In this document: piece by piece, positions 5,767-37,853 of the stretch
Position numbering within the stretch: the first letter of the stretch is position 1
Layout of the letters: each line of letters starts with the position of its first letter
Source of the DNA: a bacterium
GTDB taxonomy: Bacteria > Margulisbacteria > Marinamargulisbacteria > JAHFDA01
Assembly (NCBI GenBank): GCA_023249225.1
Contig: JAHFDA010000013.1
Coordinates: 1 to 58,033, forward strand
Reading direction: 5' to 3'
DNA length: 58,033 nt
Notes under the pieces: model-generated
Databases searched by the model: none
Told to the model about the DNA's origin: nothing
Seen by the model: the letters and a program-made list of their open reading frames with translations, nothing else
Program-made: the position numbers and the translations under genes

Positions 5767-6123
5767 ATGAATACGTTCGAGCATAAATCCATTGCACTTC
5801 GAAATGATGATCTGCCCGTACTCAGCGACAGACAATCGGTTTATGCGTATCTGCAAGGCCAGCGCTTGAAGAAACTAAATGTCACCCTGGCAGATCAACA
5901 TCTGGCCTACTTTGCATATATGATTCCCTTGGCTTTTTCCCTGACTGGGATCAGCTTGGGATTGCCCATCCTCATCGCCGAAGCGGCCGGAATATTCATG
6001 CCATTTTGGCTTTACGCCGTCGGAGTTGTAACTTTGCAAATTCCGGGAAATCTTTTGCTGTATTTAATTGATCGCTATATCTCGACAAGGAATCCGTTGT
6101 TGGAGATTTCGGGCCCTGACTAG
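5767..6123 (+). CDS. Small membrane protein of unknown function
   Basis: A 118-residue protein with a polar N-terminal 45 residues and two hydrophobic segments, about 47-72 (AYFAYMIPLAFSLTGISLG) and 77-100 (FMPFWLYAVGVVTLQIPGNL). It is probably an inner-membrane protein with two helices. I see no family signature. There is no clear Shine-Dalgarno site, and a small palindrome lies just before the start. The gap after it holds a MITE-like repeat. Confidence 0.5.
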   Translation: MNTFEHKSIALRNDDLPVLSDRQSVYAYLQGQRLKKLNVTLADQHLAYFAYMIPLAFSLTGISLGLPILIAEAAGIFMPFWLYAVGVVTLQIPGNLLLYLIDRYISTRNPLLEISGPD

Positions 6124-11176: not shown

Positions 11177-11185
11177 ATAAACATC

Positions 11186-12055
11186 CTAACTCGGAGGATT
11201 CCAGCCACCCTCAGCATCGTAATTTTCGCTTTGAGGGAGGCCTGCTGCATTCCAAACCGCGTCAAACATTGGCTTAAGTTTTAAAGGGAGATTATCGAAA
11301 TCTTCAATTAAAACCTCGGGCAGAATCAGTAGATCACGATCAATAGGAAACATATTCCGATTCCATTCGTTCTTCACTGCAAGATATGCGCCTTTAACAC
11401 CCAACACAACCATAGATATAAAAAAGGGGGTAGATATTCCTAGCTTACGTAAGCCTTCCAAATTTTCGGATAATCCCTCTATGACAACCCTTTCATACCA
11501 TGTACTCGCCAAACAGGAATATCCCCTTTTACTATGCATCGAAATAATCCCAGCTAAAACTGATTCAATCTTTCCATCACGGAATATCTGGCAATAACCA
11601 TCCTGTGGTTTCTGGCGATCGTTTCCACAAGTAGTCACTAACCCATCAACATTCAATCTACTTATCAATATGGATCGGCCGACGGGACAAAAATATCGTT
11701 CATACATCGCGAGATTGGAACCACTGAAACGATAACCCGACTGTAAAGACTCATATGGAACGATATGTAGTATCAATTTAGCCTGATCGATCAGTGGAAC
11801 AGGTGTATTTCCACCCGTTATTTCAACGAGACGGGAGTCACGCCATAGTTTGACCTGTCGGGGAAAGTCTTCAGAAAGCAAAAATGACGACCGAAGTTCG
11901 GTGGTATCCAAAGTGTACTTGCCCGCAGTGGATCTAGCGTAAAACTTACAATTTTTCGATACCATATGCGGTCTGCGCCAGCTCTGGCGAATCCGAACAA
12001 GAAAAACAGACTTTTGATTTGAAAGCTCAATTGATTTGAACTCACAGTAAGGCAA
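11186..12055 (-). pseudogene. C-terminal part of an AlbA_2 (Schlafen-like) protein, N-terminus lost
   Basis: These 289 residues match the later part of AlbA_2-domain (divergent AAA-4) proteins: the RIRQSWRRPHMV stretch, FYARSTAGKYTLDTTELR, and the ending FDAVWNAAGLPQSEN. Homology extends upstream to about 12097 (DFYRDGLDPRLPYCEFK), without a start codon there. The N-terminal DNA-binding-like half is missing. It abuts the cut hsdS gene, so a deletion appears to have fused the two. Whether the remaining frame is translated is unknown. Relatives are common accessory genes of type I R-M loci. Confidence 0.75.
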
Positions 12056-12395
12056 TCTGGGATCCAGGCCATCTCGGTAGAAGTCGATCAGATCTGGCCC
12101 GAATGACCATTAATTTTGTTGAAACCACAAAATCATCAGCATCTTCGTCAACGTAAGCCCAGCGACCATTAGCAGGACGTATCTCACTAAAAAGAATATC
12201 GTCTTTACGGATCGCCTTCTTCGCCTGCCCTGGCCAGTCTCTGACCACAGTATAGTTACGATGAAGAATCTTGCCATGCAAAATGTCAGAAGTATTCAAA
12301 AAGATTAACTGTTCCTTCTCCATCTTATGGGTATCGGAAATAGAATCCGCAAAATCACCCAATCGTGTCGTTGGATAACTATCCCCCATGCCCAA
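12042..12395 (-). pseudogene. hsdS: HsdS specificity subunit, N-terminal fragment
   Basis: The first 100 or so residues match the first target-recognition domain of type I specificity subunits: TTRLGDFADSISDTHK, the EQLIFLNTSDIL strand, and KKAIRKDDILFSEIRP. The frame then runs into unrelated sequence near 12097 and stops at 12042. The central helix, second recognition domain and C-terminal helix are gone, whereas a full HsdS is about 400 residues. Without them the methyltransferase complex cannot recognise a split target normally. Confidence 0.85.
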
Positions 12396-12421
12396 CCCCT
12401 TTCATAATTTCACTACCCATC

Positions 12422-12637
12422 TCAACCCTTCATCCCCTCACCCAAAACCGCCACCACATTTTCTCCCTTCGCACCCTCAACATACTTGCCGTTATACCAC
12501 TGTGCATCGGGGTCATGTTTAACAGAAATATTTTTTACAGTCGTCACGTTGTCGTAACCATCCTCGTAGCCCTGTACAAGTACTTTGGTCTGGGGTGGAT
12601 ATTTTTGCAGCAGGGCGATGAGGTCAGCAATAATCAT
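12422..12637 (-). CDS. Small conserved-looking protein in the R-M island
   Basis: A 71-residue protein starting MIIADLIALLQKYPPQTKVL. The ATG at 12637 is supported by GGAGG nine bases upstream. It has an alpha-beta look with KVLVQGYEDGYDNV in the middle. Similar short proteins accompany defence or toxin-antitoxin cargo, but I cannot name a family. It follows the pRiA4b-like gene by four bases and is probably translated with it. Confidence 0.6.
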   Translation of the reverse strand: MIIADLIALLQKYPPQTKVLVQGYEDGYDNVTTVKNISVKHDPDAQWYNGKYVEGAKGENVVAVLGEGMKG

Positions 12638-12641
12638 GGCG

Positions 12642-13217
12642 TTATCCTCCAAACACCTTATACAAAAAGAAATTTACTTGCCGTAAATTAAAATACTCAG
12701 GGTTAAAGCCATCGGGTACCCAATCGGCGTACTCCTGATATAGCGGATGCCGGTCATCTTTTATGATTGCCAGTTTTTCGGTATATCCGTGTGCGCCCCC
12801 ACTATCTTCGAGCGGACAGCTTCGCTGCCCTTCAACGCAGGTTGGCTCGTCGGATATATCCTCGGTTTTTATGACAATTTTTTCAAACTCAATTAAATGC
12901 CGCCAATCGTCACCAAAATCGTATTCGTAAACCAAAGCATCGCTAGGCTTAGAAAAGACTTTATTTAGCTTAACTTTACGTTCGTCAATTACCGTAATGC
13001 TAGGATCTTCATCCAACTCAAATTTCGGATCAGAATAAATAGCTTCGCCCTGCCGAAACTGATGCAGATGACTGTCTAACCAACCCATGCTGATCTGAAT
13101 GACATCATGCAGTTCGCCCAGAGTCAGGTTAGCGGGCACTAAAACTCGCCGCCAGATGGATGGTTCAATATCCAATAAGGTTATTTTTAATTGGTAGATT
13201 TTGGAATGGGATTGCAA
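12642..13217 (-). CDS. Plasmid pRiA4b ORF-3-like protein
   Basis: A 191-residue protein of the pRiA4b ORF-3 family. Recognisable pieces are the opening YQLKITLLDIEPSIWRRV, the GELHDVIQISMGW helix, and VYEYDFGDDWRHLIEFEKI. The family travels with plasmids and mobile islands; its biochemical function is not known to me. It is the first gene of a short unit with the 71-residue protein. Its presence here shows the R-M island is a composite of mobile cargo. Confidence 0.88.
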   Translation of the reverse strand: MQSHSKIYQLKITLLDIEPSIWRRVLVPANLTLGELHDVIQISMGWLDSHLHQFRQGEAIYSDPKFELDEDPSITVIDERKVKLNKVFSKPSDALVYEYDFGDDWRHLIEFEKIVIKTEDISDEPTCVEGQRSCPLEDSGGAHGYTEKLAIIKDDRHPLYQEYADWVPDGFNPEYFNLRQVNFFLYKVFGG

Positions 13218-13239
13218 TTCGGATGCCCCTTACGTTTAT

Positions 13240-13413
13240 GGAACAACTTGTTCCACAATTGAGATTGAAATCTAAAGGCTTGGAAAAGTGAGTTATCCAC
13301 AGATATTTCCTTGGGGCATCCAACTAGTCAAATAACCGTCAAATAAGAATATGCCTGTATTTTTGGTGTTTTCTAGCACTTTACTGCTTTGTAAAGCGGT
13401 AGTAGTCAAATAA
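13240..13413. promoter_or_regulatory. Repeat-rich gap with DnaA box, palindrome and 9-bp repeats
   Basis: The 220-base gap between the pRiA4b-like gene and the AlbA_2 gene holds a perfect palindrome GGAACAA-C-TTGTTCC (13240-13254), a perfect DnaA box TTATCCACA (13293-13301), and three direct copies of GTCAAATAA (13327, 13338, 13405). It also carries the promoter of the pRiA4b-like unit. The set resembles a small iteron-type origin or an operator cluster, possibly a plasmid relic. This is inference from motifs only. Confidence 0.4.
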
Positions 13414-13437
13414 GATGCGTAAAATATCATGTAAAAA

Positions 13438-14892
13438 TTACAGCCAAAATGGCACATATTGGGCATGCTTTTTTGAGTTATTTTCGGGATCTGACGCCTT
13501 AATACGACCCGCTTTCATGGTTTCTGAAATAAATCTGGAAGCCATTGATGAATTTTCTTCTTTAATTCCAAACCTTTCCCTTAAGGTAGCGTTGGTCATC
13601 TTTTTATTCGAAACATAACATAAACAGGCATGCTGATAGCAGGCACGTATGCGATCGCTCTTCTTCATCTGAGAGACATTTTGCGGGGCATATAAAATTA
13701 CCTTGGTATGATTCGTACTCTCCTGAAAATCCGGCGGTGGTAACTGAAAAAACTCGATCTGAAATATGACCTTATCGATACCACTACCCCGTTCTTCACA
13801 AATATTGAGTCGCCGCATAAATGCTGCCAGCGCCTCATTTCTAGAACGTGGTGGTTCGTCAATGAATCGCAATGGATCTATCAATGGAACGCCAGGATTA
13901 GTAATTTCGATGCGGTCTGAGAATATTTCTACCATAGGACCGGTACCGCTAATTAAAAAATCTTGGTGAATAATGGCATTTGCAACAAGTTCGCGAATAG
14001 CTATTTCGGGATACATTCGTACTTCGCGTCTAAGCGATCGACCTATCTCTTCGTTGCTCGGCAAGAGATTATTTATATAATCTATTAATAATTCAAATCC
14101 CACAGCGTAACCTTTAACCTCCAGCTGCTCTTTGAGCGTTTCGGTTCGTACAGTGCCTTTGTATTGAATAACACGCATGGCTTTTCTTTTTAACCCATCA
14201 AAAGCCTCAAGACGCCGGGCAAATAATATGGCTCCCAAATTTGTAACTTGAAATTTTCCATCGTCATCTTCTTGAATAACGTTTTCCGTTTTTAAGCGCT
14301 CCAAAATGCCTATGCGATTTTCCGGCAACGGTTGTCCTAACAATTCAAAAAAGGCAGGATAGTCGATAAGCTCTAAAACTGTCTCGGCGGTAATTGAAGC
14401 AGAGGCTATGCCTTTCTCGAACGACTCGTGGCGAAACTTTGCCCAAAGGTTACGCTCCTTGTCAGGAAACTCTTTTAGTTTTTTAGTAGCGGATCCCACC
14501 CGAATATATTCTTCACCATTAAATCTGACCGGCATATAGGAAGCCGCTGGAACATTAATCAGAACCATGGGCTTATCCTGATAAGCAAACTCCTGAATTC
14601 GAAAATCAAGTCTGGGGTTCAATAGATGACTTAGCCAATTCTGCAGTTCCTCCGCACCTTTTTTAGCAGTTGATGCTTTAAATTTTGTTCCTACCACATT
14701 GTGTGTATTGTCTATCCCCCAAACAATATATCCATTGGTGCGATTCAAGAGGGCAGTTGCGTTTGCAATCGCAGAAATATTTTCCCCTATAGAGAGAGGT
14801 TCTTCGTTGTTTAGCTTAAATTCAATCCATTCAGCTTCATTTGGAAGGGGTAGAAGTTCATCGATGAGTTTTTCTAGGCTAGATCTAGTCAT
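13438..14892 (-). CDS. AlbA_2-domain ATP-binding protein (Schlafen-like regulator)
   Basis: A 484-residue cytoplasmic protein. The N-terminal AlbA_2 domain covers about residues 10-140 (EWIEFKLNNEEPLSIGENIS, GYIVWGIDN, EEYIRVGSATKKL). A GHKL-type ATPase-like C-terminal region follows (IAIRELVANAIIHQDF, ERGSGIDKVIFQIE), and a winged-helix-like end. Such proteins are frequent in type I R-M loci and are thought to be regulators or nucleic-acid-binding defence components. It starts 9 bases after the hsdM stop, so they probably form one operon. It is intact, unlike the truncated relative at 11186-12055. Confidence 0.85.
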   Translation of the reverse strand: MTRSSLEKLIDELLPLPNEAEWIEFKLNNEEPLSIGENISAIANATALLNRTNGYIVWGIDNTHNVVGTKFKASTAKKGAEELQNWLSHLLNPRLDFRIQEFAYQDKPMVLINVPAASYMPVRFNGEEYIRVGSATKKLKEFPDKERNLWAKFRHESFEKGIASASITAETVLELIDYPAFFELLGQPLPENRIGILERLKTENVIQEDDDGKFQVTNLGAILFARRLEAFDGLKRKAMRVIQYKGTVRTETLKEQLEVKGYAVGFELLIDYINNLLPSNEEIGRSLRREVRMYPEIAIRELVANAIIHQDFLISGTGPMVEIFSDRIEITNPGVPLIDPLRFIDEPPRSRNEALAAFMRRLNICEERGSGIDKVIFQIEFFQLPPPDFQESTNHTKVILYAPQNVSQMKKSDRIRACYQHACLCYVSNKKMTNATLRERFGIKEENSSMASRFISETMKAGRIKASDPENNSKKHAQYVPFWL

Positions 14893-14900
14893 AAACTATT

Positions 14901-16466
14901 TTAGTCTTTCCCAAACCCCAGACCCGCCAAATTCTTCTTAATCGCCGCATCCAATTTTTGGCCTTCAGCCATTTGCTCATATAGGGTCATAGTCAAAGTC
15001 GCCATTTTTTCTGCAAACGGAATACCATCATCCTCTATCGCTTCTGCACCCACATAACGCCCAGGTGTCAGCACATGACCATGTTTGCGGATTTCATCTA
15101 GGCCAACCGATTTACAGTAACCCAAAACATCGGCATAGACCCCGACCTCTGCATCGCCCCGCCAAGCATGATAAGTATTGGCAATTTTTTGAATGTCAGT
15201 GTCGCTTAGTTCCCTATGGGTACGGTCGGCCATGACACCCATTTTGCGTGCATCAATGAACAATGTTTCACCTTTACGGTTACGCAGCTTGCTGCTGTTC
15301 TTATTGCGCGTCACAAACCACAAGCAAACCGGAATTTGGGTGGAATAAAACAGTTGTCCGGGCATGGCTACCATGCAGTCGACCAAATCAGCTTCTATAA
15401 TATTCTTTCTAATCTCACCTTCGCCAGATTGATTCGACGACATTGACCCATTAGCAAGCACAAAACCAGCAATGCCGTTAGGTGCAAGGTGATGAATAAA
15501 ATGCTGTACCCAGGCATAGTTGGCATTGCCCGCAGGCGGAACACCAAACTTCCAACGCGCATCATCTTTGATTAGATCGCCGCGCCAATCACTGTCGTTA
15601 AAGGGCGGGTTAGCCAAAACAAAATCCGCTTTTAAATCCTTGTGTCCCTGCGCATGAAACGTATCTCCGTGCACAATCTGTGCATCGATACCACGAATGG
15701 CCAAGTTCATCTTAGCCAGCCGCCAGGTCGTATAGTTGGATTCTTGGCCATAAATAGATAGATCCCCAATTTTTCCACCATGAGCCTCAATAAATTTTTC
15801 ACTGGAAACAAACATACCCCCCGAACCACAGGCCGGATCGTATACACGACCTTTGTACGGAGCAATCATAGTCACCAAAAGCTGAACAACCGAACGAGGT
15901 GTGTAAAACTGTCCCCCGTTTTTACCTTCAGCGCTGGCAAATTGGGTTAGAAAATATTCATAGACTCGTCCTAAGATATCTTTGGACCGATTCTCGCTAT
16001 CACCCAAACCGATATTACTCACTAGATCAATGATTTGTCCTAGTCGTACCTTATCTAAGCCTGGTCGAGCATAGTCCTTCGGCAAAACTCCTTTTAAGGT
16101 CGGATTATCCCGTTCAATAGCCACCATGGCGTCATCAAGCATGCTACCAATACTTGCTTGCTTGGCGTTCGCCTTAATCATTAGCCAGCGCGCTTCCTTG
16201 GGTACCCAAAAAATATTTTCTGCTAAATATTCGTCACGATCTTCTGGATTAGCGCCATTTGCAACATCGGCACTTAACTTAGTGTACTGTTCTTCAAAGG
16301 CATCAGAAATATATTTAAGAAATAAGAGACCTAAAACTACGTGTTTATATTCGGCAGCATCCATATTATTACGCATGGCATCTGCTGCCTTCCAAAGCTG
16401 AGCTTCAAACCCTAGGTTGGCCGCGGTGGTGCTTTTACTTTCAGATTCTTTTTTTTGTTTTACCAT
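14901..16466 (-). CDS. hsdM: Type I R-M DNA methyltransferase subunit HsdM
   Basis: A 521-residue N6-adenine methyltransferase subunit of normal length. The N-terminal HsdM helical domain ([20 protein letters not shown]) leads to the SAM-binding motif [10 protein letters not shown] at about 210-219 and the catalytic NPPF at 286-289. It is the only complete member of the hsd set here. With HsdS cut and HsdR deleted it is probably inactive unless a specificity subunit is supplied from elsewhere. It is the first gene of the island's minus-strand run. Confidence 0.95.
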
Positions 16467-16501
16467 TATTCAGATAATCCCTTTTTAGGCCCTCATTATA
16501 G

Positions 16502-16680
16502 CGAGATTAATCAAAAACATCGCAAAAAAATAAATAAATCAGCCCCTTGACCTAGCCTTTGTGTTTCTGGTTTTTGCTCAACAAATTTCAACCCAGAGGT
16601 GCAACATGCAAATAGGTGTCATAGGTTCACGGGGTTTACCCGAGACCCGTCAAAACTTGGTCTAAGAGGTGGTTCAATAC
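16502..16680. repeat. Right arm of the island's inverted repeat
   Basis: The inverse counterpart of 8135-8308. It starts in the leader of hsdM and runs outward through the start of the right SLOG-like remnant. Both arms place the dead gene reading away from the island. Confidence 0.8.
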
Positions 16681-16915
16681 CTACTTGGGCGTGGCCATGT
16701 GGTAGAGCACGGCAGCAAAGTTGTTTGGGGCGGCGGCGCTGCTTGCGCGTAATGTGCGGCTGGTTTCGCAGTGTCCCGGTCTGGTGGCTTTTTTGCACGG
16801 CTTACCGAGTTTCCCGATCAAGTTCAACTCAATATTCCCATTGTCATAGTGAGTCCGGAAGGGGTAGAAACTACCCACTGGATTCCGATTACGTTCAAGA
16901 AGTGTAGTACAGGCA
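16606..16915 (+). pseudogene. Right remnant of a SLOG/Rossmann-like gene, multiply frameshifted
   Basis: After AGAGGTG, a good ribosome site, ATG at 16606 gives MQIGVIGSRGLPETRQNLV and then a stop. In other frames the text goes on as EVVQYLLGRGHVV, then LLARNVRLVSQCPGLVAFLHG, as expected for a nucleotide-binding Rossmann/SLOG protein broken by several small indels. It fills most of the 459-base gap between hsdM and the DUF4143 ATPase. The left copy at 8131 keeps only the first 25 or so codons. Confidence 0.6.
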
Positions 16916-16925
16916 ATGCAGTAAA

Positions 16926-18176
16926 TCACCCCAACATCCACTCCCGCGTTGCCAAAATGCGAATGGTTTTTCCGTCCTGAACCAGCTTCTCCGTGGGATC
17001 ATCGTAAGTCAGGATCAGGCCTTGTTTGAGTTTAAGCTGCTGCATGGCAAGCATTAGACTACCGACTTCGCGCTCACGGGTCTGGGGCTGGCGCAGCGTC
17101 CAGGATACTTGAATGGCTTCCTTGCGCCCGGGAATATAAATATCCACCTCGGCGGCGGGCGCCTTCCAATAATAAACTTCATGGCCGCGTCGGCGACATT
17201 CGTTAAAAACCATCGTTTCGAGCAGGCGTCCATCCATTTCAATGCCCGGTGTGCCAAGACTCCGCACCATGCCATGATCCGTGGCATAAAGCTTAAAAGG
17301 ATTGCGGGCCTGTTGCTTCAGCGACCGGGTGTAAAGCCAGATGCGTTCGGTTAAATAAGCCGCGTCCATGCTGGCCAAAATCTTTTGCGCAGTATGCGAG
17401 CTTTTTAAGCCAAAGGCCTTGGCCAAACTGTTGTGGCTATGCAGACACGCCGTATGCAACATACAAAACTTGGCCAGCTCTTTCAGCTCGCTGACCTTGC
17501 GCAACTTTAAGCGGGCGGCGATATCCTTTTGCAGGATATGGGCGTAATACTCCTGAACCAGCGGTAAAGATTGCTGTTTAAAAACTTCTGGAAAACCGCC
17601 ATAACGTAAATAGTCGTCAAAGGCACGCTTGATGCTTAGCTTTTCATGTGTGCTTTTGTGCGTTGTCTTGATTTTCAGGGCGCCAAGATACTCGGCGAAC
17701 GAAAACGGCCGCAAGGACAGCGGCAAGTAGCGACCAGTTAGACTGCTGGCCATCTCGCCGGACAGCAACTGCGCGTTGGAACCGGTGACAAAAATCTTGA
17801 GCCCCTCCATTTCGCACAGGCGATTGACCCATTTTTCCCAGCCTTTAATTTCCTGAACTTCGTCGAGCAGGGCATAGCGCGGAGACTGCGTTCCAAGCGC
17901 CTGCAACGCATTTTCGTAGACCGACTGAAGATCTTCCATCCGTAACCCACCAAGACGTTCATCGTCAAAATTCACATAAAAATATGAACCATTCAGGTAC
18001 GCGTCTGCTATTAGTTTTAACAGCGATGATTTGCCACAGCGCCGGATACCCGTGATGAGCACCGTTTCCTTCAGCTTAAGATACTTTTGCATGTCTCCGA
18101 GCGCTGCTCGCGAGACCAACGAACGTGACCGCCTGAATATTTGATTCTGGTCGTCTAAAGTTTTTAAAAGATCCAT
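16926..18176 (-). CDS. AAA_14/DUF4143 family ATPase (second copy type)
   Basis: A 416-residue ATPase with Walker A GIRRCGKSS at 43-51 and Walker B RYALLDEVQEIKGW near 100. The DUF4143 C-terminal portion contains YLRYGGFPEVFKQ, and a nuclease-like end includes YYWKAPAAEVDIYIPG. It is from the same broad family as 6411-7586 but only distantly similar in sequence. Its stop lies just inside the island boundary. The promoter puts the transcription start at the ATG, with no ribosome site. Function unknown; the family is a typical accessory gene. Confidence 0.85.
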   Translation of the reverse strand: MDLLKTLDDQNQIFRRSRSLVSRAALGDMQKYLKLKETVLITGIRRCGKSSLLKLIADAYLNGSYFYVNFDDERLGGLRMEDLQSVYENALQALGTQSPRYALLDEVQEIKGWEKWVNRLCEMEGLKIFVTGSNAQLLSGEMASSLTGRYLPLSLRPFSFAEYLGALKIKTTHKSTHEKLSIKRAFDDYLRYGGFPEVFKQQSLPLVQEYYAHILQKDIAARLKLRKVSELKELAKFCMLHTACLHSHNSLAKAFGLKSSHTAQKILASMDAAYLTERIWLYTRSLKQQARNPFKLYATDHGMVRSLGTPGIEMDGRLLETMVFNECRRRGHEVYYWKAPAAEVDIYIPGRKEAIQVSWTLRQPQTREREVGSLMLAMQQLKLKQGLILTYDDPTEKLVQDGKTIRILATREWMLG

Positions 18177-19885: not shown

Positions 19886-19973
19886 TGGCGGAGAGAGGGG
19901 GAGTCGAACCCCCGAAGCCTTGCGGCTTACCTGATTTCGAGTCAGGCGCGATAGACCACTCTGCCATCTCTCC
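19886..19973 (-). tRNA. tRNA-Ser (CGA)
   Basis: The minus strand reads GGAGAGATGGCAGAGTGG with a matching 3' acceptor TCTCTCC, discriminator G and encoded CCA (19886-19888). The anticodon stem-loop CCTGA-CTCGAAA-TCAGG gives anticodon CGA, reading UCG. A long variable arm (AAGCCGCAAGGCTT) is typical of serine tRNAs. An IstB relic abuts its 3' end. In the bases upstream of the tRNA (19987-20112) a short frame ending EWLAVEPGSTVDWLKL can be read; I cannot assign it. Confidence 0.95.
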
Positions 19974-21122: not shown

Positions 21123-21212
21123 GGAGAGGTGTCCGAGTGGTTGAAGGAACACGCCTGGAAAGCGTGTATACAGGAAACTGTATCGAGGGTTCGAACCCCT
21201 CCCTCTCCGCCA
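21123..21212 (+). tRNA. tRNA-Ser (GGA)
   Basis: The acceptor GGAGAGG pairs with CCTCTCC, followed by G and encoded CCA. The anticodon stem-loop CACGC-CTGGAAA-GCGTG gives anticodon GGA. The long variable arm ATACAGGAAACTGTAT is the serine hallmark. A TATAAT at 21084-21089 may be its -10 box, although no good -35 is visible. The remaining 120 bases to the next gene hold nothing I can assign apart from its ribosome site GGAGGTG. Confidence 0.96.
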
Positions 21213-21333: not shown

Positions 21334-22962
21334 ATGCTTACTATTAAACGCAGCACAGCTGCAACTTTTGGCCTCGCATGTATTCTGATCTTTTCCGGGT
21401 GCGGATATATGGCCGATGTGAGCAACGCTCCAGTGGCCGATTCGTCCGCCAGTGGCGCATCTACTCTTCAAGCACTCGACATTAGCAATGATCCCGAACT
21501 TATGGATTACAACCCCCAGGGCGGCCAACTCACGGCCCAGCACAACGCCAAATGGGTCCATCACAGAATGGAACAAATTGAACGGGCCAGTATCCGTTAC
21601 CAAAATGTGGATGATGCCTTGTTAACCATCTATCAGAATCTTCAAAAAAATCTAATCGAGTTGTTGACTGCCAATCATCCGCATAAAAAGATTCATCAGG
21701 ATGAACAAGCCTTACGCGAATCGATTCGCATCGTGCATCAGGAACTTGATACCGTCAAACAGCTACTTAAGCATAAAAAAGACCTGACGGGCCATGGTGT
21801 CGACGCAGTCCATGCCCGGATTCTTAAAAATGTCATCAAGGACGGTAAGCTGCACCCCCTGGCAGACCGCATCCTGTTAGGAATGTTTAACCATGCCCCT
21901 GCGGCCATCGCTGGCGATGACATGTCTGTGTTGGCGGGAAGCATGGTAACCCTGCATGGCAGCGCTATCGACGCCGATGGTGATGCGTTAAGTTATGCCT
22001 GGTCAGCCCCAGCGGGAATGACCCTGGTAAACGCCAGCGCCGCCAATGCCAGTTTTGTGGCACCCGCAACGGCTGGTATGTATATGTTTACACTCACCGT
22101 TTCTGACGGATTCGTAAGCGCGCAAGACACGGTTATGGTCACAGTCATTGTTCCCAATACGGCACCCGTGGCCGATGCTGGAATCAACCAAACCGTAATG
22201 GCTGGAAGCATGGTGACCCTGCATGGTAGTGGCTCTGATGCAAATGGAGACACACTCTCCTATATGTGGACAGCCCCCAGCGGTATCGTACTTTCCAACG
22301 CCAATGTTGCAAACCCAAGTTTCACTGCCCCAATGGCAGCTGGAGATTATGTGTTGACCCTGCTGGTATCAGACGGCAAGGATGTCAGCGTGGCCGACAG
22401 CGTCATGATTACAGTATTTGTCCCCAATACGGCACCGGTCTCTGAAGCTGGAACAAACCAAACTGTAGGAACGGGTAGCAAAGTAACACTGCATGGCAGC
22501 GGTTCCGATGCGGATGGCGATGCGCTGTCATATATGTGGACAGCCCCAAGCGGCATTATGCTTTCAAGCTCAACGGTGGCAGAACCCACGTTTACAGCTC
22601 CCTCGGCAGCTGGTACCTATGTATTTAATCTGCTGGTCTCGGACGGCAAGGATGTCAGCATGGCCGACAGCGTTACCGTTACCGTCATCAACCTCAATAA
22701 AGCTCCTGTGGTCAATGCCGGCGATGACACGGGTGCCATGCCTGGACGCTTTATCTATCTTGAAGGCAATGCGTATGACCCGGATGGCGACCCGATCACG
22801 GTGCAGTGGACCGCGTTAAATGGCAACATAGAAATCTTTGACGCAGATTCGCTGAATGCGTACTTTATTTCGCCTTCTTCGTCTGGAACTTACCGCATCG
22901 TGCTGACCGTAAGCGACGGAAAGCTTACCACAAGCGATTACATTAACTTACAGGTTTATTGA
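21334..22962 (+). CDS. Lipoprotein with four PKD/REJ-type repeats
   Basis: A 542-residue surface or periplasmic lipoprotein. The signal ends in a lipobox (LIFSGC, about residues 19-24). Residues 70-170 are charged, helical and likely coiled. Then come four repeats of about 90 residues (about 187-275, 276-365, 366-455, 456-542) with the PKD pattern TAPVADAGINQTV, LHGSGSDADGDALSYMW and FTLTVSDG. Such domains act as spacers or bind polymers and other proteins outside the cell. Start supported by GGAGGTG upstream. A strong terminator follows. Confidence 0.85.
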   Translation: MLTIKRSTAATFGLACILIFSGCGYMADVSNAPVADSSASGASTLQALDISNDPELMDYNPQGGQLTAQHNAKWVHHRMEQIERASIRYQNVDDALLTIYQNLQKNLIELLTANHPHKKIHQDEQALRESIRIVHQELDTVKQLLKHKKDLTGHGVDAVHARILKNVIKDGKLHPLADRILLGMFNHAPAAIAGDDMSVLAGSMVTLHGSAIDADGDALSYAWSAPAGMTLVNASAANASFVAPATAGMYMFTLTVSDGFVSAQDTVMVTVIVPNTAPVADAGINQTVMAGSMVTLHGSGSDANGDTLSYMWTAPSGIVLSNANVANPSFTAPMAAGDYVLTLLVSDGKDVSVADSVMITVFVPNTAPVSEAGTNQTVGTGSKVTLHGSGSDADGDALSYMWTAPSGIMLSSSTVAEPTFTAPSAAGTYVFNLLVSDGKDVSMADSVTVTVINLNKAPVVNAGDDTGAMPGRFIYLEGNAYDPDGDPITVQWTALNGNIEIFDADSLNAYFISPSSSGTYRIVLTVSDGKLTTSDYINLQVY

Positions 22963-29370: not shown

Positions 29371-30051
29371 TTAGGCTTCTTTAAAACGCAGGACAATGAG
29401 TTCAACCCGACGATTCCGGTCACGATTTTCTTGTGTGTCGTTGGGTACCACCGGCCTGTATTCGGCATAACCCACCGCCGACATGCGTCCTGGATTCACG
29501 CCCGCTCTGATTAAATATCTGATCACGCTGCTTGATCGCGCTGAAGACAGATACCAGTTATTGGGATACCGCTCGGTCAGGATGGGAACGTTGTCCGTAT
29601 GGCCTTCGACTCGCAAAGCATAAGAATAATAACGTATTTTTTTGGAGATTTCCTTGAGCACTTCCAAGCCTTCAGGCAGGATCTCATCCTCGCCAATTTT
29701 AAAAAATCGGGCACTCATGGTGATGCGTAAGCCCTCGGCCGTCATTTCCATGCGCACACGATCTTGCAATTTGTGACTGGTAAAATGCTGGTCCAGTTCT
29801 GATTGGATTTTCGCCAAGTCTTCCTGCTTGAACAGGTTGGGAACTTCCTTGGCATCGATGGCACCGGTGATGGATTCCGTGACCGCCTTGAACTTGTTTT
29901 TATCCACCGTGCTCAAAGTAAAGAGCAGCACAAAAAATGCCAGCAAGAGCGACAGCAGGTCGATATAACTGATCATCCAGAGGCTACCCTTGTGCCCTCC
30001 GCCTCCGTCCTCCTCTTCGTGGCTTTCCTGAAACCGTGATTTGGCGCTCAC
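29371..30051 (-). CDS. motB: MotB-like stator subunit
   Basis: A 226-residue stator protein. One membrane helix (about 25-47) carries the ion-binding aspartate at residue 31 within WMISYIDLLSLLLAFFVLLF. A plug/linker region follows, then an OmpA-type peptidoglycan-binding domain (about 120-226) with VEGHTDNVPI and the ending NRRVELIVLR. All elements for a proton- or sodium-driven stator anchored to the wall are present. It overlaps motA by four bases. The very short N-terminal tail is Glu/Gly-rich. Confidence 0.93.
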   Translation of the reverse strand: MSAKSRFQESHEEEDGGGGHKGSLWMISYIDLLSLLLAFFVLLFTLSTVDKNKFKAVTESITGAIDAKEVPNLFKQEDLAKIQSELDQHFTSHKLQDRVRMEMTAEGLRITMSARFFKIGEDEILPEGLEVLKEISKKIRYYSYALRVEGHTDNVPILTERYPNNWYLSSARSSSVIRYLIRAGVNPGRMSAVGYAEYRPVVPNDTQENRDRNRRVELIVLRFKEA

Positions 30052-30935
30052 GCCGCTGCACCGCCTCCTGCGACTGGGGCCGCTGCCGCCCCCGCTTCTG
30101 CGCCAACCGCACGTTGCACGGTATGACGCATGCTCGAAGGCAGCGACGCATTAAGCAACAGCTCAATATCCCGTGGATGCACTTTGCGGCGCAAGCCCAT
30201 GATACCCTCGGCCGTCAGACGCATCAGAAACACTTCTTCGTTCATGCGGGCCTTAAGTTTTTCGGTAATCGGCACAAAAACCAGGTTGGCAAAGATGATG
30301 CCATAAAAGGTGCCAATCATGGCAATGGCCATGGAGGGACCCACCCGGTCAGGATCGTTTAGGTTCAACATCATCTGCACCAGACCCACCACCGTACCGA
30401 TCAGTCCAAAAGCCGGCGCATAACTGGCCAGAGTGCTAAAAATATGCTGACCTTCAAGGTGGCGTTGTTTCATAGAGTTGATCTCGTGTTCCATCACGGT
30501 TTCCATCACCTCGGGATCGACGCCATCCACCACCATTTCGACACAGTGTTTGAGAAACAGGTCGCCGATCTTCTTTTCTTCTTTCTCAAGTTTAAGCGTG
30601 CCGCCCTTGCGCACCGTCATCGCCAGCTGCACCACAGACTCCACCATTTCTACAGGAGAACGGACTTTTCTACGAAAAATATTGATAAACACAAACATCA
30701 CATTGTGCACGCGCTGCGCCGGAAAACTGATGTAGACCGCCGCCATCGTGCCGCCGATCACCAACATGCCTGCACCAGGATTTAAGTAAGTGGTCAGCTT
30801 GCCACCTTCGTGGAAAATGGCATACCCGATTAGAAAAAAACCGCTGATAATGCCCAGCAAAGATGTGAAATCAAAGCCGCTGCCCGACTGGGTATAACTG
30901 GGCTGACCACTGTTTTCTTTTTTCTTTTCAACCAT
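30048..30935 (-). CDS. motA: MotA-like stator subunit
   Basis: A 295-residue four-helix stator protein, expected to form a pentamer around MotB. Seen: helix 1 (LLGIISGFFLIGYAIF), the GAGMLVIGGTMAAVYISFP helix, a large cytoplasmic loop with a charged stretch (EKEEKKIGDLFLKHCVEMV), and the late pair YAPAFGLIGTVVGLVQMM and TFYGIIFANLVFVPI. The C-terminal tail is Ala/Gly-rich. It lies 12 bases after the second barrel-TPR gene, so the stator pair is made with the rotor genes upstream. Confidence 0.94.
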   Translation of the reverse strand: MVEKKKENSGQPSYTQSGSGFDFTSLLGIISGFFLIGYAIFHEGGKLTTYLNPGAGMLVIGGTMAAVYISFPAQRVHNVMFVFINIFRRKVRSPVEMVESVVQLAMTVRKGGTLKLEKEEKKIGDLFLKHCVEMVVDGVDPEVMETVMEHEINSMKQRHLEGQHIFSTLASYAPAFGLIGTVVGLVQMMLNLNDPDRVGPSMAIAMIGTFYGIIFANLVFVPITEKLKARMNEEVFLMRLTAEGIMGLRRKVHPRDIELLLNASLPSSMRHTVQRAVGAEAGAAAAPVAGGGAAA

Positions 30936-30947
30936 GGATGGTTCTAT

Positions 30948-32126
30948 TTAATATCCTACAACAATTCGCTTGTTGGCCTTGATAAGCATTTGTTGCACTT
31001 GCCGGTCATTGGGGTCACGAATGAGCGCTTCGCGATAATAATCACGGGCCTTCTCGTACAAACCCAGTGTGTAGTATATGGATCCAATGCGTTTATAGAC
31101 TTCGGCCTCTTCCGGATTAATTTTCTGCGCCTCTAGCAGCTCTCCAATGGCCTCGTAATACTTCTTCTGGTAGACCAGCTCAAAACTATGCATAAAATGG
31201 TCTGCGATTTCGTTGAGGCGCTTAGCCCGTACTTCTTCGATGTTAAACGATGCCACATCTGATTCGCCCACGTAACGTAATCCCGTATTTTCAGAAGTTG
31301 CCAAACTCTCATATACTTTTTCAGGCTTGGTTGCCTCGATCCGGTACAGATACTCATCTACAAAAAAGTTCATAAACCGAATTTCTTCTTGCTGCTTTAA
31401 GACTTTCTCGTGGAGGCGCTCAAAATCCTCTTTTTGAGTACGCGTTTTTTCTGACAACGAATTAAATAGGTAATTGGTTGAAAAGGTAAACTGCATGGTC
31501 GAGGGGCTTTGTACCCCGATGGCAGACGCTGAAAATTCCAAGTCTCTAAACACTAAAAAATCGATGCCCCAATACCATTCGGTGCCCGCCGACAGGTTGA
31601 TGCCGTCATAATCCAGTGAAAGCTCTCCCAAAGGGCTGGGCAGCGAAAGTGCTGCGGCATACAAAAAACCTGGCGTGCCAAAAGGATCGCGCATCCGCAT
31701 GCCAGCGTGCAACTTGACCCAGCCCAAATCGCCACTCCAGATGACATACATTGATGGACTGGTGATGGTCGAAAAATCGCGCAATCCAAACGATACAGCG
31801 TTGTCGGTGATGCCCGTCCCCGCACCGTAATCAAACAACCTCTGTTGCAAACCATACACAATGGTTTCACCCTGGTGGAATCTTAAGTTCACTTCGGTCT
31901 CGTTTGAAAACGCGTAACCTAAAAAAAACGAAATGGGTTTAATGGCCGTGATGGCTGCAAGGGTGGTGTCGTAATAAAGCCCAAAGCGGGTTTCGCCCGC
32001 TGGCCGCCCCAAAGCCATGGGTATTTGAGCCGTGCTGCGGGTATATGGATAGGCGTACCCCTGATCCTGGGCCAGAACCAACATCACAAAACCCATCAGT
32101 AGAATGCGCAAACCCGCAATAGTCAT
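30948..32126 (-). CDS. Barrel-like envelope protein with C-terminal TPRs (second of pair)
   Basis: A 392-residue exported protein with a signal peptide (about 1-25, ending QGYAYPY). Residues 30-225 are rich in alternating aromatic strands (EVNLRFHQGETIVYGLQQRL, FSASAIGVQSPSTMQFTF), as in outer-membrane beta-barrels. A coiled helix follows (SEKTRTQKEDFERLHEKVLK), and the last 90 residues are TPR repeats (YYEAIGELLEAQKINPEEAE and YEKARDYYREALIRDPND). It has the same plan as the preceding gene and overlaps it by four bases. I know of no family name. Placement between rotor and stator genes suggests an outer-membrane or periplasmic part of the machine. Confidence 0.7.
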   Translation of the reverse strand: MTIAGLRILLMGFVMLVLAQDQGYAYPYTRSTAQIPMALGRPAGETRFGLYYDTTLAAITAIKPISFFLGYAFSNETEVNLRFHQGETIVYGLQQRLFDYGAGTGITDNAVSFGLRDFSTITSPSMYVIWSGDLGWVKLHAGMRMRDPFGTPGFLYAAALSLPSPLGELSLDYDGINLSAGTEWYWGIDFLVFRDLEFSASAIGVQSPSTMQFTFSTNYLFNSLSEKTRTQKEDFERLHEKVLKQQEEIRFMNFFVDEYLYRIEATKPEKVYESLATSENTGLRYVGESDVASFNIEEVRAKRLNEIADHFMHSFELVYQKKYYEAIGELLEAQKINPEEAEVYKRIGSIYYTLGLYEKARDYYREALIRDPNDRQVQQMLIKANKRIVVGY

Positions 32127-33319
32127 GGTGGGGCCGCCTTAGGCAAGGCTTTTAGAAAGCGTTGCAATTCTTCGTTGTACGGATCCAGTTCATATGCTCG
32201 ACGCCAGTATTCCTGGGCCCGAAGCTTATTGCCCAGGCGGTAATAAATACTTCCGATGCGTACCTGCGCAACCACAATATTAGGATCGATGCTTAACACC
32301 ATCAGATATTTTTCGAGCGCGCCTTCAAGATCTCCACGGTAGTATGCCTCTAAACCCTGTTGCAACATGGCAAGGATTTCCGGCAGATCCACTTCGATAT
32401 CTGCCGAGGTAAGGCTGGCACGCTTCATAAATATTTCGGGGGTGACTTCGACCGGCACCGTCACCACCACCGTCACCGTGGTCACATACGGAGAGGCTGA
32501 ACCGCTGGGCATTCCGGGTTCAGGTAATTGGGTGATCAGCTGTTTAAGGTCATCGAGGCGTGCCTCGTTGGTCTTATACTGTTCTTCCAGGGTTTTTTGA
32601 CGGTCTTCATAAGAACCAAACAAGTTATACCGGTAACTTAATCCCACCACAAATTCATTTTGCACCGTCGTGGACAGCAATTTATTGATGGCCACACTTA
32701 AGGCGACTTTGGGCGGAAACTCAAACTGCATCCCGGCGTTCCAGTTTTGACCATCAAATTCCATCATGATGCGCGCCGGATTAAGAAAGGTCTGTACCCC
32801 CCCAAAAAACTGGGTGCTAAAGGAGCTCAAGTTAAACGGATTGAGCAGATTGACACCCGCGTTGTATTCAAAATATTCATTGCTAAAAACCTGGCCGCTT
32901 AAAATAAAATAAATGCTTGGAATGATCAGTGCGTTTCCAGTCACGCCAAAATCCTTGACGCCAAAGGCAATGGCATCGGAACTTTCCTGGCTAAAACTGC
33001 CCTTCCACAAACGCTGCTGCACGTGGTGACCAATCACGCTCTGGTTATAAATCATTAACGCGTACTCGGTATAATCGCTAAAAGAATAGCTTAGAAAAAA
33101 ATTTTTCAACTGCAGTGAGGCGCTTTGGACGCCATACTGGTAAAACAAACCGGTCTCCAGCTGGGCGCTTTGGCGATTATACGCCGTGGGAATGTTGATC
33201 AATCCCATGGTGTTGTTAAAAGCATGCAGAGCGCTTGAGTGTAATCCCAGGACACATAACATCGTGGAAATAAATTGAATCGGCGAAACGGCAAAACGGC
33301 GAAATGGCAAAACAAACAT
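32123..33319 (-). CDS. Barrel-like envelope protein with C-terminal TPRs (first of pair)
   Basis: A roughly 398-residue exported protein of the same design as its downstream neighbour: signal sequence ending LHSSALHA, strand-rich barrel-like part (for example TGLFYQYGVQSASLQLKNFF), a linker with a Thr/Val run (VTTVTVVVTVPVEVT), then two TPRs (YRGDLEGALEKYLMVLSIDP, LGNKLRAQEYWRRAYELDPY). The start is uncertain. The frame is open to 33385 through a low-complexity tandem tract (CGCCGACTC-type repeats, about 33270-33360); I prefer the ATG at 33319, and 33262 is another option. It follows the FliM-like gene. Confidence 0.68.
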   Translation of the reverse strand: MFVLPFRRFAVSPIQFISTMLCVLGLHSSALHAFNNTMGLINIPTAYNRQSAQLETGLFYQYGVQSASLQLKNFFLSYSFSDYTEYALMIYNQSVIGHHVQQRLWKGSFSQESSDAIAFGVKDFGVTGNALIIPSIYFILSGQVFSNEYFEYNAGVNLLNPFNLSSFSTQFFGGVQTFLNPARIMMEFDGQNWNAGMQFEFPPKVALSVAINKLLSTTVQNEFVVGLSYRYNLFGSYEDRQKTLEEQYKTNEARLDDLKQLITQLPEPGMPSGSASPYVTTVTVVVTVPVEVTPEIFMKRASLTSADIEVDLPEILAMLQQGLEAYYRGDLEGALEKYLMVLSIDPNIVVAQVRIGSIYYRLGNKLRAQEYWRRAYELDPYNEELQRFLKALPKAAPP

Positions 33320-33357
33320 GTCCCCGACTCGCCGACTCACCAACTCGCCGACCCGTT

Positions 33358-33879
33358 TCAGATTGTTTCGGTTTGTGGAAAACACGAATGCACGCCACCC
33401 ACCAGCTTTTCATTAAGGTAACACTGGTAATCGACTGAAAAAATAGGATCCGTGGCTAAAAAGGTGTGGATCACCCGCGACTGCGATTCCTGACGCACCA
33501 GCTGACACTCAAAAAAAACTTCGCAATAAATACCCTTGAATTTTTCCATGGTTTTTTTAAGCACCAGTTGCTCGCTTAAGGCAAAAGTTTGCCGCTCTTT
33601 CATGGACAGGCTGCCCTGCCCCCCCAGCATGCGATCGGTAAACGAAAACACCACTTGCGGATTAATCTCCAGTACAAAATACCGCTGCGTGGGTTTGGTT
33701 TCGAACACATTCATTGACGTAAAATACGGTAGCTTGCGAATAAAATCCCCAAAGGTATCGGTCTTGATCTCGCCTGGAACAAGTTCGATATTGGCTTGCA
33801 GCATTTCGCTAAAGCGGTCGCTGACATGGCGCACAAAATTATTATTGACCCGCTCCAGAAACAACTTTCCAAATATCAT
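33358..33879 (-). CDS. FliM-like rotor protein lacking the SpoA domain
   Basis: These 173 residues match the N-terminal and middle domain of the flagellar switch protein FliM: FLERVNNNFVRHVSDRFSEM, TFGDFIRKLPYFTSMNVF, and VLEINPQVVFSFTDRMLGGQ. The usual C-terminal SpoA/FliN-like domain (about 80-100 residues) is absent; the protein ends shortly after the middle domain with its own stop. The short N-terminal CheY-binding peptide also appears missing. It overlaps fliG by four bases. Inference: it can cap FliG but cannot build the FliN C-ring or respond to CheY in the normal way. Confidence 0.8.
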   Translation of the reverse strand: MIFGKLFLERVNNNFVRHVSDRFSEMLQANIELVPGEIKTDTFGDFIRKLPYFTSMNVFETKPTQRYFVLEINPQVVFSFTDRMLGGQGSLSMKERQTFALSEQLVLKKTMEKFKGIYCEVFFECQLVRQESQSRVIHTFLATDPIFSVDYQCYLNEKLVGGVHSCFPQTETI

Positions 33880-35006
33880 GAGGTCACCCCGTTGCTGGCT
33901 GGCGCATCTTGAGGAACCAGTTCGCTAAGCGAAATGTTGCGTTCGGAGGCAAAGGTTTTGGCGTAGCCCACCAGGGTCTTGCGCGATTGTTCCACCGCAT
34001 TCTGCTCTACATCTTGACCCAGCAGTTCAATTTCTTCGGTCAGCATCTCACGCATACGCGCTGACATGTTGGCCTGGAGTTTTTCAAGCAGATCACGGTC
34101 TATCCCTTTAAGCGCGGTAGCCAAAAGCTGCATGTCACGTACTTCAGAGAGAATATATTGTAAATAATTATCCGGCAGGTGACGCAGGTCGCTAAACGCA
34201 AACAACATCTTTTTCATTTGCTTAACCTTGCTGGGAAATTCGGCTTCGATGGCGCGGATGATAGGAATACGCTCGTTTTCGGCGATATCATCCAAGATAG
34301 TGGCCACCCGTTGTATGTTGGCGGTTTCACCCATGCGCTGCATTTCACGCTGCGAGAAATAGCCTTCGAGGCCACGTTCAAGTTCGTTAATCGGAAGAAT
34401 AGGTGGCTCCAGGTTAAGCATGCGCTTGGTCAGGTCCACACGTTCTTTGTCAGAGAAAAGTTCTAGTGTCTCACTGGCCTTGGCCGAGTCAATGGATGAG
34501 AGTATCAAGGCCGCAAATTGGGGGTGTTCCTGCGACAGCATGGTAAAAAGTTCGCGGGTAGGCATCTCAGCCAAAAGTTTGAACTGGTCGCCGCGTTCGA
34601 AAAAATAACTTTGTGCATCTTCTTCGCCAAAAAGGTTTTGGACAATATTTTGGGCCACCTGCTTGCCCCCAAACATTTGCGACTTTTCGATAAATACTTC
34701 GTAAAACTCGTGAATCACGCGTGCCATGGTGTTGTGGTCTACAAAATTAAGCCGCGAAACCTCTTGAATGACAAAGCGCAGATATTTTTTGTTAAGTTTG
34801 CGGTAAATTTCCGAAACCAGGTTGGGATCCTCCTGACTGATGGAAATCAACAAGATCGCCGCTTTTTGAAGGTTGTTCAAACCGCCGCCTACTTTAAAAA
34901 CAGGTGCGATCTCGGCACCCAGGCTCGCAGACGGGGGAGCAGCTCCGGTAAGACCCGCAGGCACCTTAAATTCCTGGACAGGGCGTTCTTTGGCGGTCTC
35001 GGCCAT
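33876..35006 (-). CDS. fliG: FliG-like rotor protein
   Basis: A 376-residue FliG homologue of near-normal length. N domain LQKAAILLISISQEDPNLVS (about 45-65), middle-domain EHPQFAALILSS motif, and C-terminal torque domain with MLFAFSDLRHLPDNYLQYIL and LLATALKGIDRDLLEKLQ. In ordinary FliG the torque helix begins with two aspartates followed by arginines. Here the pair reads Pro-Asp and the later arginine is Tyr, so the MotA contact surface is altered. The Pro/Ala-rich N-terminal 40 residues are an extension. The start shares one base with the FliF-like stop (TAATG). Confidence 0.88.
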   Translation of the reverse strand: MAETAKERPVQEFKVPAGLTGAAPPSASLGAEIAPVFKVGGGLNNLQKAAILLISISQEDPNLVSEIYRKLNKKYLRFVIQEVSRLNFVDHNTMARVIHEFYEVFIEKSQMFGGKQVAQNIVQNLFGEEDAQSYFFERGDQFKLLAEMPTRELFTMLSQEHPQFAALILSSIDSAKASETLELFSDKERVDLTKRMLNLEPPILPINELERGLEGYFSQREMQRMGETANIQRVATILDDIAENERIPIIRAIEAEFPSKVKQMKKMLFAFSDLRHLPDNYLQYILSEVRDMQLLATALKGIDRDLLEKLQANMSARMREMLTEEIELLGQDVEQNAVEQSRKTLVGYAKTFASERNISLSELVPQDAPASNGVTS

Positions 35007-36355
35007 TAGGCATCCACCTCCACACCCATCCAGCTATCTAGCAACTTGGCAAAAGACTCAAGGTCTTCTTGCGCCATCTGTAAAATGGCTTCCCGCTTGG
35101 CGCGTAGTTTTTCTTGTTCTTCAATACGCACGGCTTCTTTTTCTTCTTTTTCTTGCTTGGTTGCTTCCAGTTCGGCTTGTTTGGCCGCTGCCGTCGATTC
35201 CGCCACGCGCAGACGTTTCTTTTCACTGAAATTGGCATAGGCACGGGTGCCAAATATCCCCAGGATAATCATGATAAAGATGCCGCAACCGGTCAGAATG
35301 GCAAAACGATAAAGGCGCCAAAAAACACTAAAGCGTTCGGCAAAGGTGGTTTGGCTGTATGGAATCAGGACAAATTCGTCCTGACGGGCGGGATCAAAAC
35401 CAACCATGCTTTTGACGTAACGTTCCAGGTCAAAACGGCGGTCACCCAGCCGCTCAAGCACGGCATCTTTAATTGCTAGATTGACGCTTAAACGCAAAAT
35501 TTCACCGGGTGGGATTACCTTTTTATACTTTTTGGTATTAAAAACATACTGATCCTGACCGCCTTCTTGAACTGTGCGTTCTGTAAATTGCTTATTGCTG
35601 CGGCTGTCAGTTTTTTCTTTTGAAGTCTTTTCTAGCGAAGATGGAATTTCAAGCGTTTCCTTGGTACTGGCACCCTCGACCCCTTTTTCTACCTTGCCTT
35701 CAACCGATTCAAAGGCGTTGTCACCGTGCGCACTCTGCTCGTCATAGGAAAAAACTTTTGGAAAACCCGGCAGATCCTGGTCAAGGTAACTTTGTTCCGG
35801 AGCATAAAGCAAGCCCGGTAATGCGCCTTGATTTTCGTCGGACCCGCCGCCACGGGAAACCCCTTGGCTACCCCCTTCTTCGGACTGATTTTCTTTTTGT
35901 TTAGAAGATTCCAACAGAGATTCTTTAAGCTGTTTTTCAAGCTTTTTTTGATGTTCTTCAAAGGCCACCACATTGCCCTGATCCGCAAAATCCTCCTGGG
36001 TTTTGTCGGTTTTAATGGTTTGTTCGGATTTCAGTTTTTGAGGCTCATAATTGACGTCTTCGAATTGTTCTTCCTGCATGCGCAAAAGTACGTTGACCCG
36101 TACCACAGCCTTACGGCTTCCAAGAATCTTGTCGAGCGCTTCTTGAACCTGGTCTTCGAGATAAGTCTCGAGTGACTTTTTCTTTTCAATGGTTTGGCGC
36201 CAGTATTGATCTTGCGAATCGGTGGGCACACTTTCAAACAGTTTGAATTTTTTTGCAAGCCACAGGTCGGCTGCAAGCACCAGCAATAGACCCACCAGCG
36301 CCAACGGCACCCATTTGCCTCTCCCTACAGGCCGTTTTGCTTGTGGCAATCGCAT
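35006..36355 (-). CDS. Minimal FliF-like ring protein (RBM3 only)
   Basis: A 449-residue membrane-ring protein. Membrane helix 1 is at about 15-34. Residues 60-112 (EDQVQEALDKILGSRKAVVR, NYEPQKLKSEQT) and 277-336 (IPPGEILRLSVNLAIKDAVL, YVKSMVGFDPARQDEFVLIP) are the two halves of the FliF C-terminal RBM3 domain. They are split by a long charged insert like the beta-collar region. Helix 2 is at 349-373, then a charged tail ends in DLESFAKLLDSWM, which fits the FliG-binding helix. The RBM1 and RBM2 domains that should follow helix 1 are missing, so ordinary FliF (about 550 residues) is shortened at exactly that place. It heads the motor operon. Confidence 0.82.
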   Translation of the reverse strand: MRLPQAKRPVGRGKWVPLALVGLLLVLAADLWLAKKFKLFESVPTDSQDQYWRQTIEKKKSLETYLEDQVQEALDKILGSRKAVVRVNVLLRMQEEQFEDVNYEPQKLKSEQTIKTDKTQEDFADQGNVVAFEEHQKKLEKQLKESLLESSKQKENQSEEGGSQGVSRGGGSDENQGALPGLLYAPEQSYLDQDLPGFPKVFSYDEQSAHGDNAFESVEGKVEKGVEGASTKETLEIPSSLEKTSKEKTDSRSNKQFTERTVQEGGQDQYVFNTKKYKKVIPPGEILRLSVNLAIKDAVLERLGDRRFDLERYVKSMVGFDPARQDEFVLIPYSQTTFAERFSVFWRLYRFAILTGCGIFIMIILGIFGTRAYANFSEKKRLRVAESTAAAKQAELEATKQEKEEKEAVRIEEQEKLRAKREAILQMAQEDLESFAKLLDSWMGVEVDA

Positions 36356-37457: not shown

Positions 37458-37510
37458 ACTATTCCTCCTGTAATTCATGCCTACACTCCGCATTCCACGT
37501 TCCGCATTTA

Positions 37511-37853
37511 AAAGATTAGGCTCATAAGCCGGATTCTGTTTTTACGCCATCATTCCTCTAGTCCCGCCATTGCTGACGGGATCAAGCTGCCTACCCAAGG
37601 TTCTTTCGGATCGGGCCGATCCTCGCCTTCTATTTGGCATTGCTCCCCGTAGAGTTTACCTGATTTCACTACAGCCCCTGACTTTCGCCAGGGCGTACAT
37701 ACTTTCTGTTGCACTGGTCCTTTCGACAGGGCTTGCCGCGCCGAAGCGAAGCAAGCGACGCGAAGGCGGGCGTTACCCGCTACGGTGCCCTATGGAGTCC
37801 GGACTTTCCTCCCTGTACCGGATGGTACACGGCGATAGCGCGGCCTAATCTGC
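37511..37853 (-). ncRNA. rnpB: RNase P RNA, bacterial type A
   Basis: The catalytic RNA of tRNA 5'-end maturation. Conserved core blocks on the minus strand are GAGGAAAGTCCGGACTCCAT, GGTAAACTCTACGGGGAGCA and CAGAATCCGGCTTA. Helix P1 pairs AGATTAGGC at the 5' end with GCCTAATCT at the 3' end, which fixes both limits to within a few bases. A run of T follows the 3' end. The P12 arm (around 37735-37785) is long and very G+C-rich (GCGTCGCTTGCTTCGCTTC). Any ORF here is spurious. Confidence 0.95.

Follow-up and report, generated by a model that had tools for sequence, protein, structure and literature searches.

The operon described here likely encodes a stand-alone, ion-driven and non-secreting rotary motor that is built from flagellar rotor and stator parts and passes torque to the outer membrane. 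It lies in the DNA of an uncultured bacterium, in a stretch of 58,033 nucleotides (the window), which corresponds to contig C61 of a 2.83-Mb assembly with a completeness of 97% and no 16S gene, and comprises seven minus-strand open reading frames between positions 29371 and 36355 (Table 1). When the reading frames of the window were checked, all seven were recovered at the positions previously assigned to them, and their coordinates, junctions and Pfam domains bear out a sequence-only reading that had recognized them as tightly coupled motor genes. The E-values of the Pfam matches in the operon exclude chance as their source. The genes for FliF and FliG overlap by 1 base, whereas overlaps of 4 bases are found between the genes for FliG and FliM, between the two barrel-TPR genes and between the genes for MotA and MotB, with a gap of 12 bases separating the second barrel-TPR gene from that for MotA. 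If read from its annotated GTG start at 33385, the gene for barrel-TPR protein 1 overlaps the FliM gene by 28 bases, but this start is probably too early; read from an internal ATG some 66 bases further on, it would be separated from the FliM gene by about 40 bases. Scans for promoters and terminators stayed at chance level. Housekeeping genes flank the operon, those for a PfkB kinase and RNase P RNA on its upstream side and those for chorismate mutase, DAHP synthase and prephenate dehydrogenase on its downstream side. A scan of 20 further long genes of the window detected no other flagellar gene, in agreement with the earlier statement that export, rod, hook, filament, FliN and Che genes are missing from the window.

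Table 1. Genes of the motor operon in the window and flagellar-type export/basal-body genes on other contigs of the same genome.
Feature	Position	Strand	Length	Assignment or content
Short FliF	35006..36355	-	449 aa	Pfam, profile alignment, Foldseek, TM segments
FliG	33876..35006	-	376 aa	N, M and C domains
FliM middle domain	33358..33879	-	173 aa	PF02154 2.4e-23, no SpoA
Barrel-TPR protein 1	32123..33385	-	420 aa	Pfam TPR, structure model, Foldseek
Barrel-TPR protein 2	30948..32126	-	392 aa	TPR; phmmer 1.5e-21 to protein 1
MotA stator subunit	30048..30935	-	295 aa	MotA_ExbB 8e-31
MotB stator subunit	29371..30051	-	226 aa	MotB_plug 7e-18, OmpA 1e-17
Contig C25				FlhA, FlhB
Contig C21				FlgH, FlgI, rod-type protein, FliE, full-length FliF with YscJ domain, 191-aa FliG, FliH, FliI, FliJ
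Contig C22				FliK, FlgE/F/G-like protein, 436-aa FliM, FliN, FliO, FliP, FliQ, FliR

Several other features of the window were recorded. The RNase P RNA gene (minus strand), situated just upstream of the PfkB neighbor, and two tRNA genes map to positions 37509-37851, 21123-21209 and 19889-19973. Type I restriction-modification genes (HsdR-like and HsdM) are found together with an AlbA/Schlafen-type gene and an AAA/DUF4143 gene at 8328-18176. Two predicted surface proteins are encoded at 21334-22962 and 53748-56090, one containing PKD/Ig domains, the other FG-GAP repeats together with a metal-binding motif of the MopE type.

The short FliF homolog contains both the S-ring domain and the C-terminal FliG-binding tail, as judged by profile alignment and Foldseek. 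It has two transmembrane segments (TM1, about residues 16-34; TM2, about residues 351-369) and a cytoplasmic tail with a FliG-binding-like helix at its end, and its RBM3 domain is interrupted by a long low-complexity insert (about residues 94-283). In Pfam, it matches YscJ_FliF_C (3e-11) and lacks the YscJ_FliF domain; its profile aligns to residues 328-558 of Salmonella FliF, that is, from RBM3 through TM2 to the FliG-binding end. RBM1 and RBM2 were found neither by Pfam nor in the profile alignment, which covers RBM3 onward only. The AlphaFold model of the protein is of low confidence overall (mean pLDDT 50), and its core shows the RBM3 order helix-strand-(insert)-strand-helix-strand. The top 18 Foldseek matches of this model are all FliF RBM3/MS-ring chains, the best of them being the 'RBM3/collar region' of 6sd1 (E 2.6e-3, probability 1.00). 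A mis-started long FliF can be ruled out, because the frame is open for only 451 codons from stop to stop; the FliF1 proteins of relatives are equally short. In flagella, RBM1 and RBM2 surround the export gate, and it is mainly because the short FliF lacks these two domains that we call the operon motor non-secreting.

FliG contains its N, M and C domains (Pfam, 7.6e-17, 1.3e-12 and 1.7e-21, respectively; FliG_C, PF01706) and keeps K264, R281, E288 and E289 (E. coli numbering) as well as the EHPQ motif, while R297 has been lost. K264, R281 and the acidic residues at 288/289 match the flagellar FliG proteins of the phylum, and K264 varies among the FliG proteins of relatives. FliM has no Pfam domain other than PF02154 and matches known structures of the FliM middle domain, for example 4fq0_B. 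MotA keeps the equivalents of R90, E98, P173 and P222, and MotB combines an ion-channel helix carrying the essential Asp (SYIDLLSLLL) with an OmpA peptidoglycan-binding domain. Residue numbers refer to E. coli sequences that we take to be the FliG and MotA references, verified solely by the expected residues at known numbers. Related solved structures are flagellar stators and FliG, and the residue pairs of the MotA-FliG interface, R90/D288-D289 and E98/R281, are as published (PMC12505986). Judging from these sequence features, it is very likely that the operon specifies a motor.

The two genes between those for FliM and MotA point to the site at which this motor may act. Barrel-TPR protein 1 has a signal-like N terminus, followed by a predicted 12-strand outer-membrane barrel (residues 75-254), a linker and a C-terminal TPR region (residues 334-413); its structure model is of low confidence (mean pLDDT 59). 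In Foldseek searches, the modeled barrel matches outer-membrane barrels, among them those of NanC, FapF and OmpG and of the type 9 translocon, and the TPR tail matches designed TPRs, which supports no finer identity than 'outer-membrane barrel'. Protein 2 is homologous to protein 1 and has an N-terminal hydrophobic segment. From these parts, we infer a machine in which the short FliF would form an S-ring-like (RBM3) ring in the inner membrane, with its cytoplasmic tail carrying FliG and the FliM middle domain. The stator, MotA5MotB2, would be held to peptidoglycan by its OmpA domain and use ion flow to turn the rotor via FliG_C. A ring without RBM1 and RBM2 would house no export gate and build no filament; its periplasmic part may turn or pull the TPR domains of two paired outer-membrane barrels, and torque at the barrels could then move or deform the outer membrane or whatever is attached to it, resulting in surface gliding or other envelope work. 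We consider the transmission of torque to the outer membrane reasonably likely. Gliding, which had been named as a possible use from the outset, stays a guess, speculative and somewhat doubtful.

The same genome holds, by its gene content, a second such motor on contig C78 (L005:1362-6517), where genes for a barrel, an SLH-TPR protein, a FliF-type::FliG fusion and MotA are followed by the contig end; a similar order, continued by MotB, is found across the class, and a possible common origin of the two motor types has a tree support of 77/82. In one genome (G031), the SLH, TPR and FliG parts of the second-type motor (L071) form a single protein of 911 amino acids, and a relative of the window-type motor in G017 (L078) has an SLH domain within its FliF part. 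These SLH/TPR fusions are the best evidence we have to suggest that such rotors act on the envelope. Together with the barrel-TPR partners, they also point to a reading that opposes only the gliding part of our explanation, namely that a genuine motor acts within the envelope itself, in outer-membrane/peptidoglycan remodeling, in polymer or protein transport or as a Tol-Pal/TonB-like energizer. We give this reading a chance slightly short of even: the window operon encodes no adhesin, and an S74 fiber gene is found beside one module copy only and is absent from the genome studied here, yet Tol/Exb-type energizers need no FliF/FliG rotor ring, and the giant Ig-domain proteins beside related motors in G028 and G034 would fit a moving surface adhesin.

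Giant predicted surface proteins adjoin FliF-FliG motors in G034, G028 and G031 (L084:10782-18512, L085:3-7058 and L073:11152-19899). Those of L084 and L085 contain Ig-like domains and are homologous at 1e-188, and that of L073 contains kelch repeats. Beside one window-type module, L077:10776-15546 encodes NHL-repeat, S74 endosialidase-chaperone, barrel-like and small proteins, of which the barrel-like and the small protein have homologs beside a motor in L073. A Peptidase_S74 fiber as a general motor partner was rejected because the genome studied here has none.

Outside the window, the genome carries a flagellar-type export/basal-body set on contigs C21, C22 and C25 (Table 1), whose loci include L037:203-2703 as well as L036, L068 and L004. 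The whole-genome search for flhA, fliP, fliC and fliN advised by the sequence-only reading thus had a mixed outcome, with FlhA (C25), FliP and FliN (both C22) being present and flagellin absent. The initial description of the operon as flagellar parts without a flagellum holds with respect to flagellin (PF00669), which is missing from this genome and from 27 of the 27 genomes of its class that were analyzed, but it has to be amended for the export/basal-body set. The FliG protein of C21 consists of N and M domains only. FliG_C is found in this genome only in the window and on C78, MotA only in the two motor loci, besides a 226-aa ExbB/TolQ-like gene on C79, and SpoA genes only on C22. The operon could therefore be seen as the torque ring of the C21/C22/C25 basal body, the two forming one split machine. 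Indeed, the set combines FliE, FliF, FliH, FliI, FliJ, FlgH, FlgI, FliK, FliM, FliN, FliOPQR and FlhAB with a 191-aa FliG that lacks FliG_C, and it has no MotAB beyond those of the two motors. It is, however, no canonical set devoid of its own FliF, FliG and MotAB, the situation in which the operon had been expected to be simply part of it: it possesses a full-length FliF, an adjacent, shortened FliG with N and M domains, FliM and FliN. Moreover, the short FliF of the operon keeps its own S-ring and tail, which would be needless for a helper of an existing MS ring.

The distribution of these components in the phylum argues in the same direction. Flagellin is found in 8 of 74 genomes and export-type FliF in 68 of 74, the latter occurring once per non-flagellated genome and twice in all eight flagellated genomes. 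The 31 genomes with FliG_C comprise 22 of the class's 27, all eight flagellated genomes and a further one whose match is partial. Comparison of the distributions of export-type FliF and FliG_C yields 40 genomes with export-type FliF but without any FliG_C, indicating that the export set does not depend on the window motor. In most loci read, the gene after that for export-type FliF encodes a short FliG-like protein (159-271 aa, with one open frame of 374 aa); FliG_N and FliG_M without FliG_C were seen in all three FliG proteins tested in Pfam, and a genome-wide scan for FliG_C detected none beside export-type FliF loci with a short FliG. Flagellated genomes have a second copy of the export set alongside complete flagella and motors, and one of them, G034, harbors a flagellum with its own FliF/FliG, a window-type module and the second motor type. 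The 40 genomes and the side-by-side systems of G034 argue that the window motor is not simply the missing part of a flagellum. We thus regard the split machine as improbable and the independence of the motor from the export set as highly probable. As read from the gene content, an export set that lacks a torque domain is nearly universal in the phylum, with rotor units being separate, and the export/basal-body set may represent an unrecognized non-rotating secretion system derived from the flagellum.

When gene order was read in further stretches with profiles built from the first loci, the window-type order FliF-FliG-FliM-barrel-TPR-barrel-TPR was found in 16 genomes from nine families of the phylum (f1, f4, f5, f8, f10, f12, f15, f17 and f23), a count that includes G007 (FliF-FliG only, at a contig end), G012 (module split over two contigs) and G014 and G024 (one barrel gene seen in each). 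The conserved order looked for at homologous loci was thus recovered. The barrel-TPR genes lie inside the operon in nearly every copy, and MotA-MotB do so in 7 of the 16 genomes (G004, G010, G014, G022, G037, G040 and the genome studied here, G000), with MotAB missing from the operon in several copies. FliF and FliG form a single protein in G003, G017 and G024 (fusions L076, L078 and L081), indicating that both parts belong to one rotor. FliG of window-type units constitutes a clade of its own (support 100/99), apart from the flagellar FliG proteins of the phylum; the best tree separates type-1 FliG from the latter, but an origin from them is not rejected by the AU test (p 0.07). A single-protein scan of genome contigs with FliG returned no match, the matches of an alignment scan were mostly FliG proteins of ordinary flagella, the module being recognized only in L101 and L102, and a plasmid search returned only distant flagellar FliG. 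That the operon is a functionless, decaying relic of a lost flagellum is very improbable, even though flagellin is absent and other non-motile species are known to retain relics of flagella (PMC12199754), given that its seven reading frames are intact and coupled, that gene order and torque residues are kept over deep divergence (FliG identity of 21-26%), that the domain loss in FliF is identical in all copies and that the operon includes barrel genes that no flagellum has. The earlier notion of a dedicated, non-secreting, ion-driven motor finds good support in the occurrence of the module in 16 genomes, the separate FliG clade, the FliF without RBM1/RBM2, the torque residues and the lack of flagellin in the class.

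Two further arrangements were noted. L193 and L194 (G015:C32 and G013:C39) contain a third variant, in which a divergent FliM1-like gene comes after a FliG1-like gene and no FliF is recognized next to it. In G034, the module is followed by genes for 109-aa and 409-aa proteins (L070:5925-6254 and 4693-5922), and similar-sized genes follow the module in G038 (L202).

In a literature search covering few subscription papers and no bioRxiv-only preprints, no description of a non-flagellar FliF/FliG/FliM rotor was found, and a 2026 review on gliding makes no mention of FliF or FliG. A paper on flagellar loss in the ISME Journal states the puzzle directly (PMC12199754), and the locus provides a concrete, conserved and testable answer to it, in the form of a unit that combines rotor and stator and has outer-membrane partners of its own. 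Our results suggest that the torque unit and the export unit of the flagellum can be separated and both be maintained, and that rotor and stator of the flagellum have been put to a different use by bacteria, as an independent engine serving another task in the envelope. We are marginally inclined to see in the operon a new class of envelope machine, in which rotor and stator have been freed from secretion and filament to drive barrel-TPR proteins, and in the phylum a lineage that split the flagellum into rotor-only and export-only machines and kept both over deep time. These considerations bear on flagellar evolution and on the number of ion-driven rotary machines in bacteria.

Among known systems, the flagellar motor shares with the window unit homologous parts of FliF (RBM3, TM2 and tail), FliG with N, M and C domains, the FliM middle domain, MotA, MotB and the torque residues. 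The window unit differs from it by the absence of RBM1/RBM2, SpoA/FliN and export, rod, hook and filament genes and by the addition of two barrel-TPR genes, in a genome without flagellin whose export apparatus is encoded outside the unit, on other contigs and with its own FliF. The Agl-Glt gliding and spore-coat motor of Myxococcus offers an architectural analogy only: it likewise uses a MotAB-family channel that is thought to send force through the periplasm to outer-membrane proteins, but Agl has no FliF/FliG/FliM rotor, and its stator-like units themselves move. The Glt complex has barrel/TPR parts. GldLM, which functions in type IX secretion and gliding, is also an ion-driven motor coupled to outer-membrane barrels, and type 9 translocon chains are among the many barrels matching barrel-TPR protein 1 in Foldseek, a generic match; GldLM, however, lacks FliF and FliG. 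Non-flagellar type III secretion systems, finally, are partial machines related to the flagellum as well. An export gate or sorting platform, by which they are defined, was detected neither in the operon nor among the scanned window genes: these systems keep export and lack the motor, whereas the window unit keeps the motor and lacks export.
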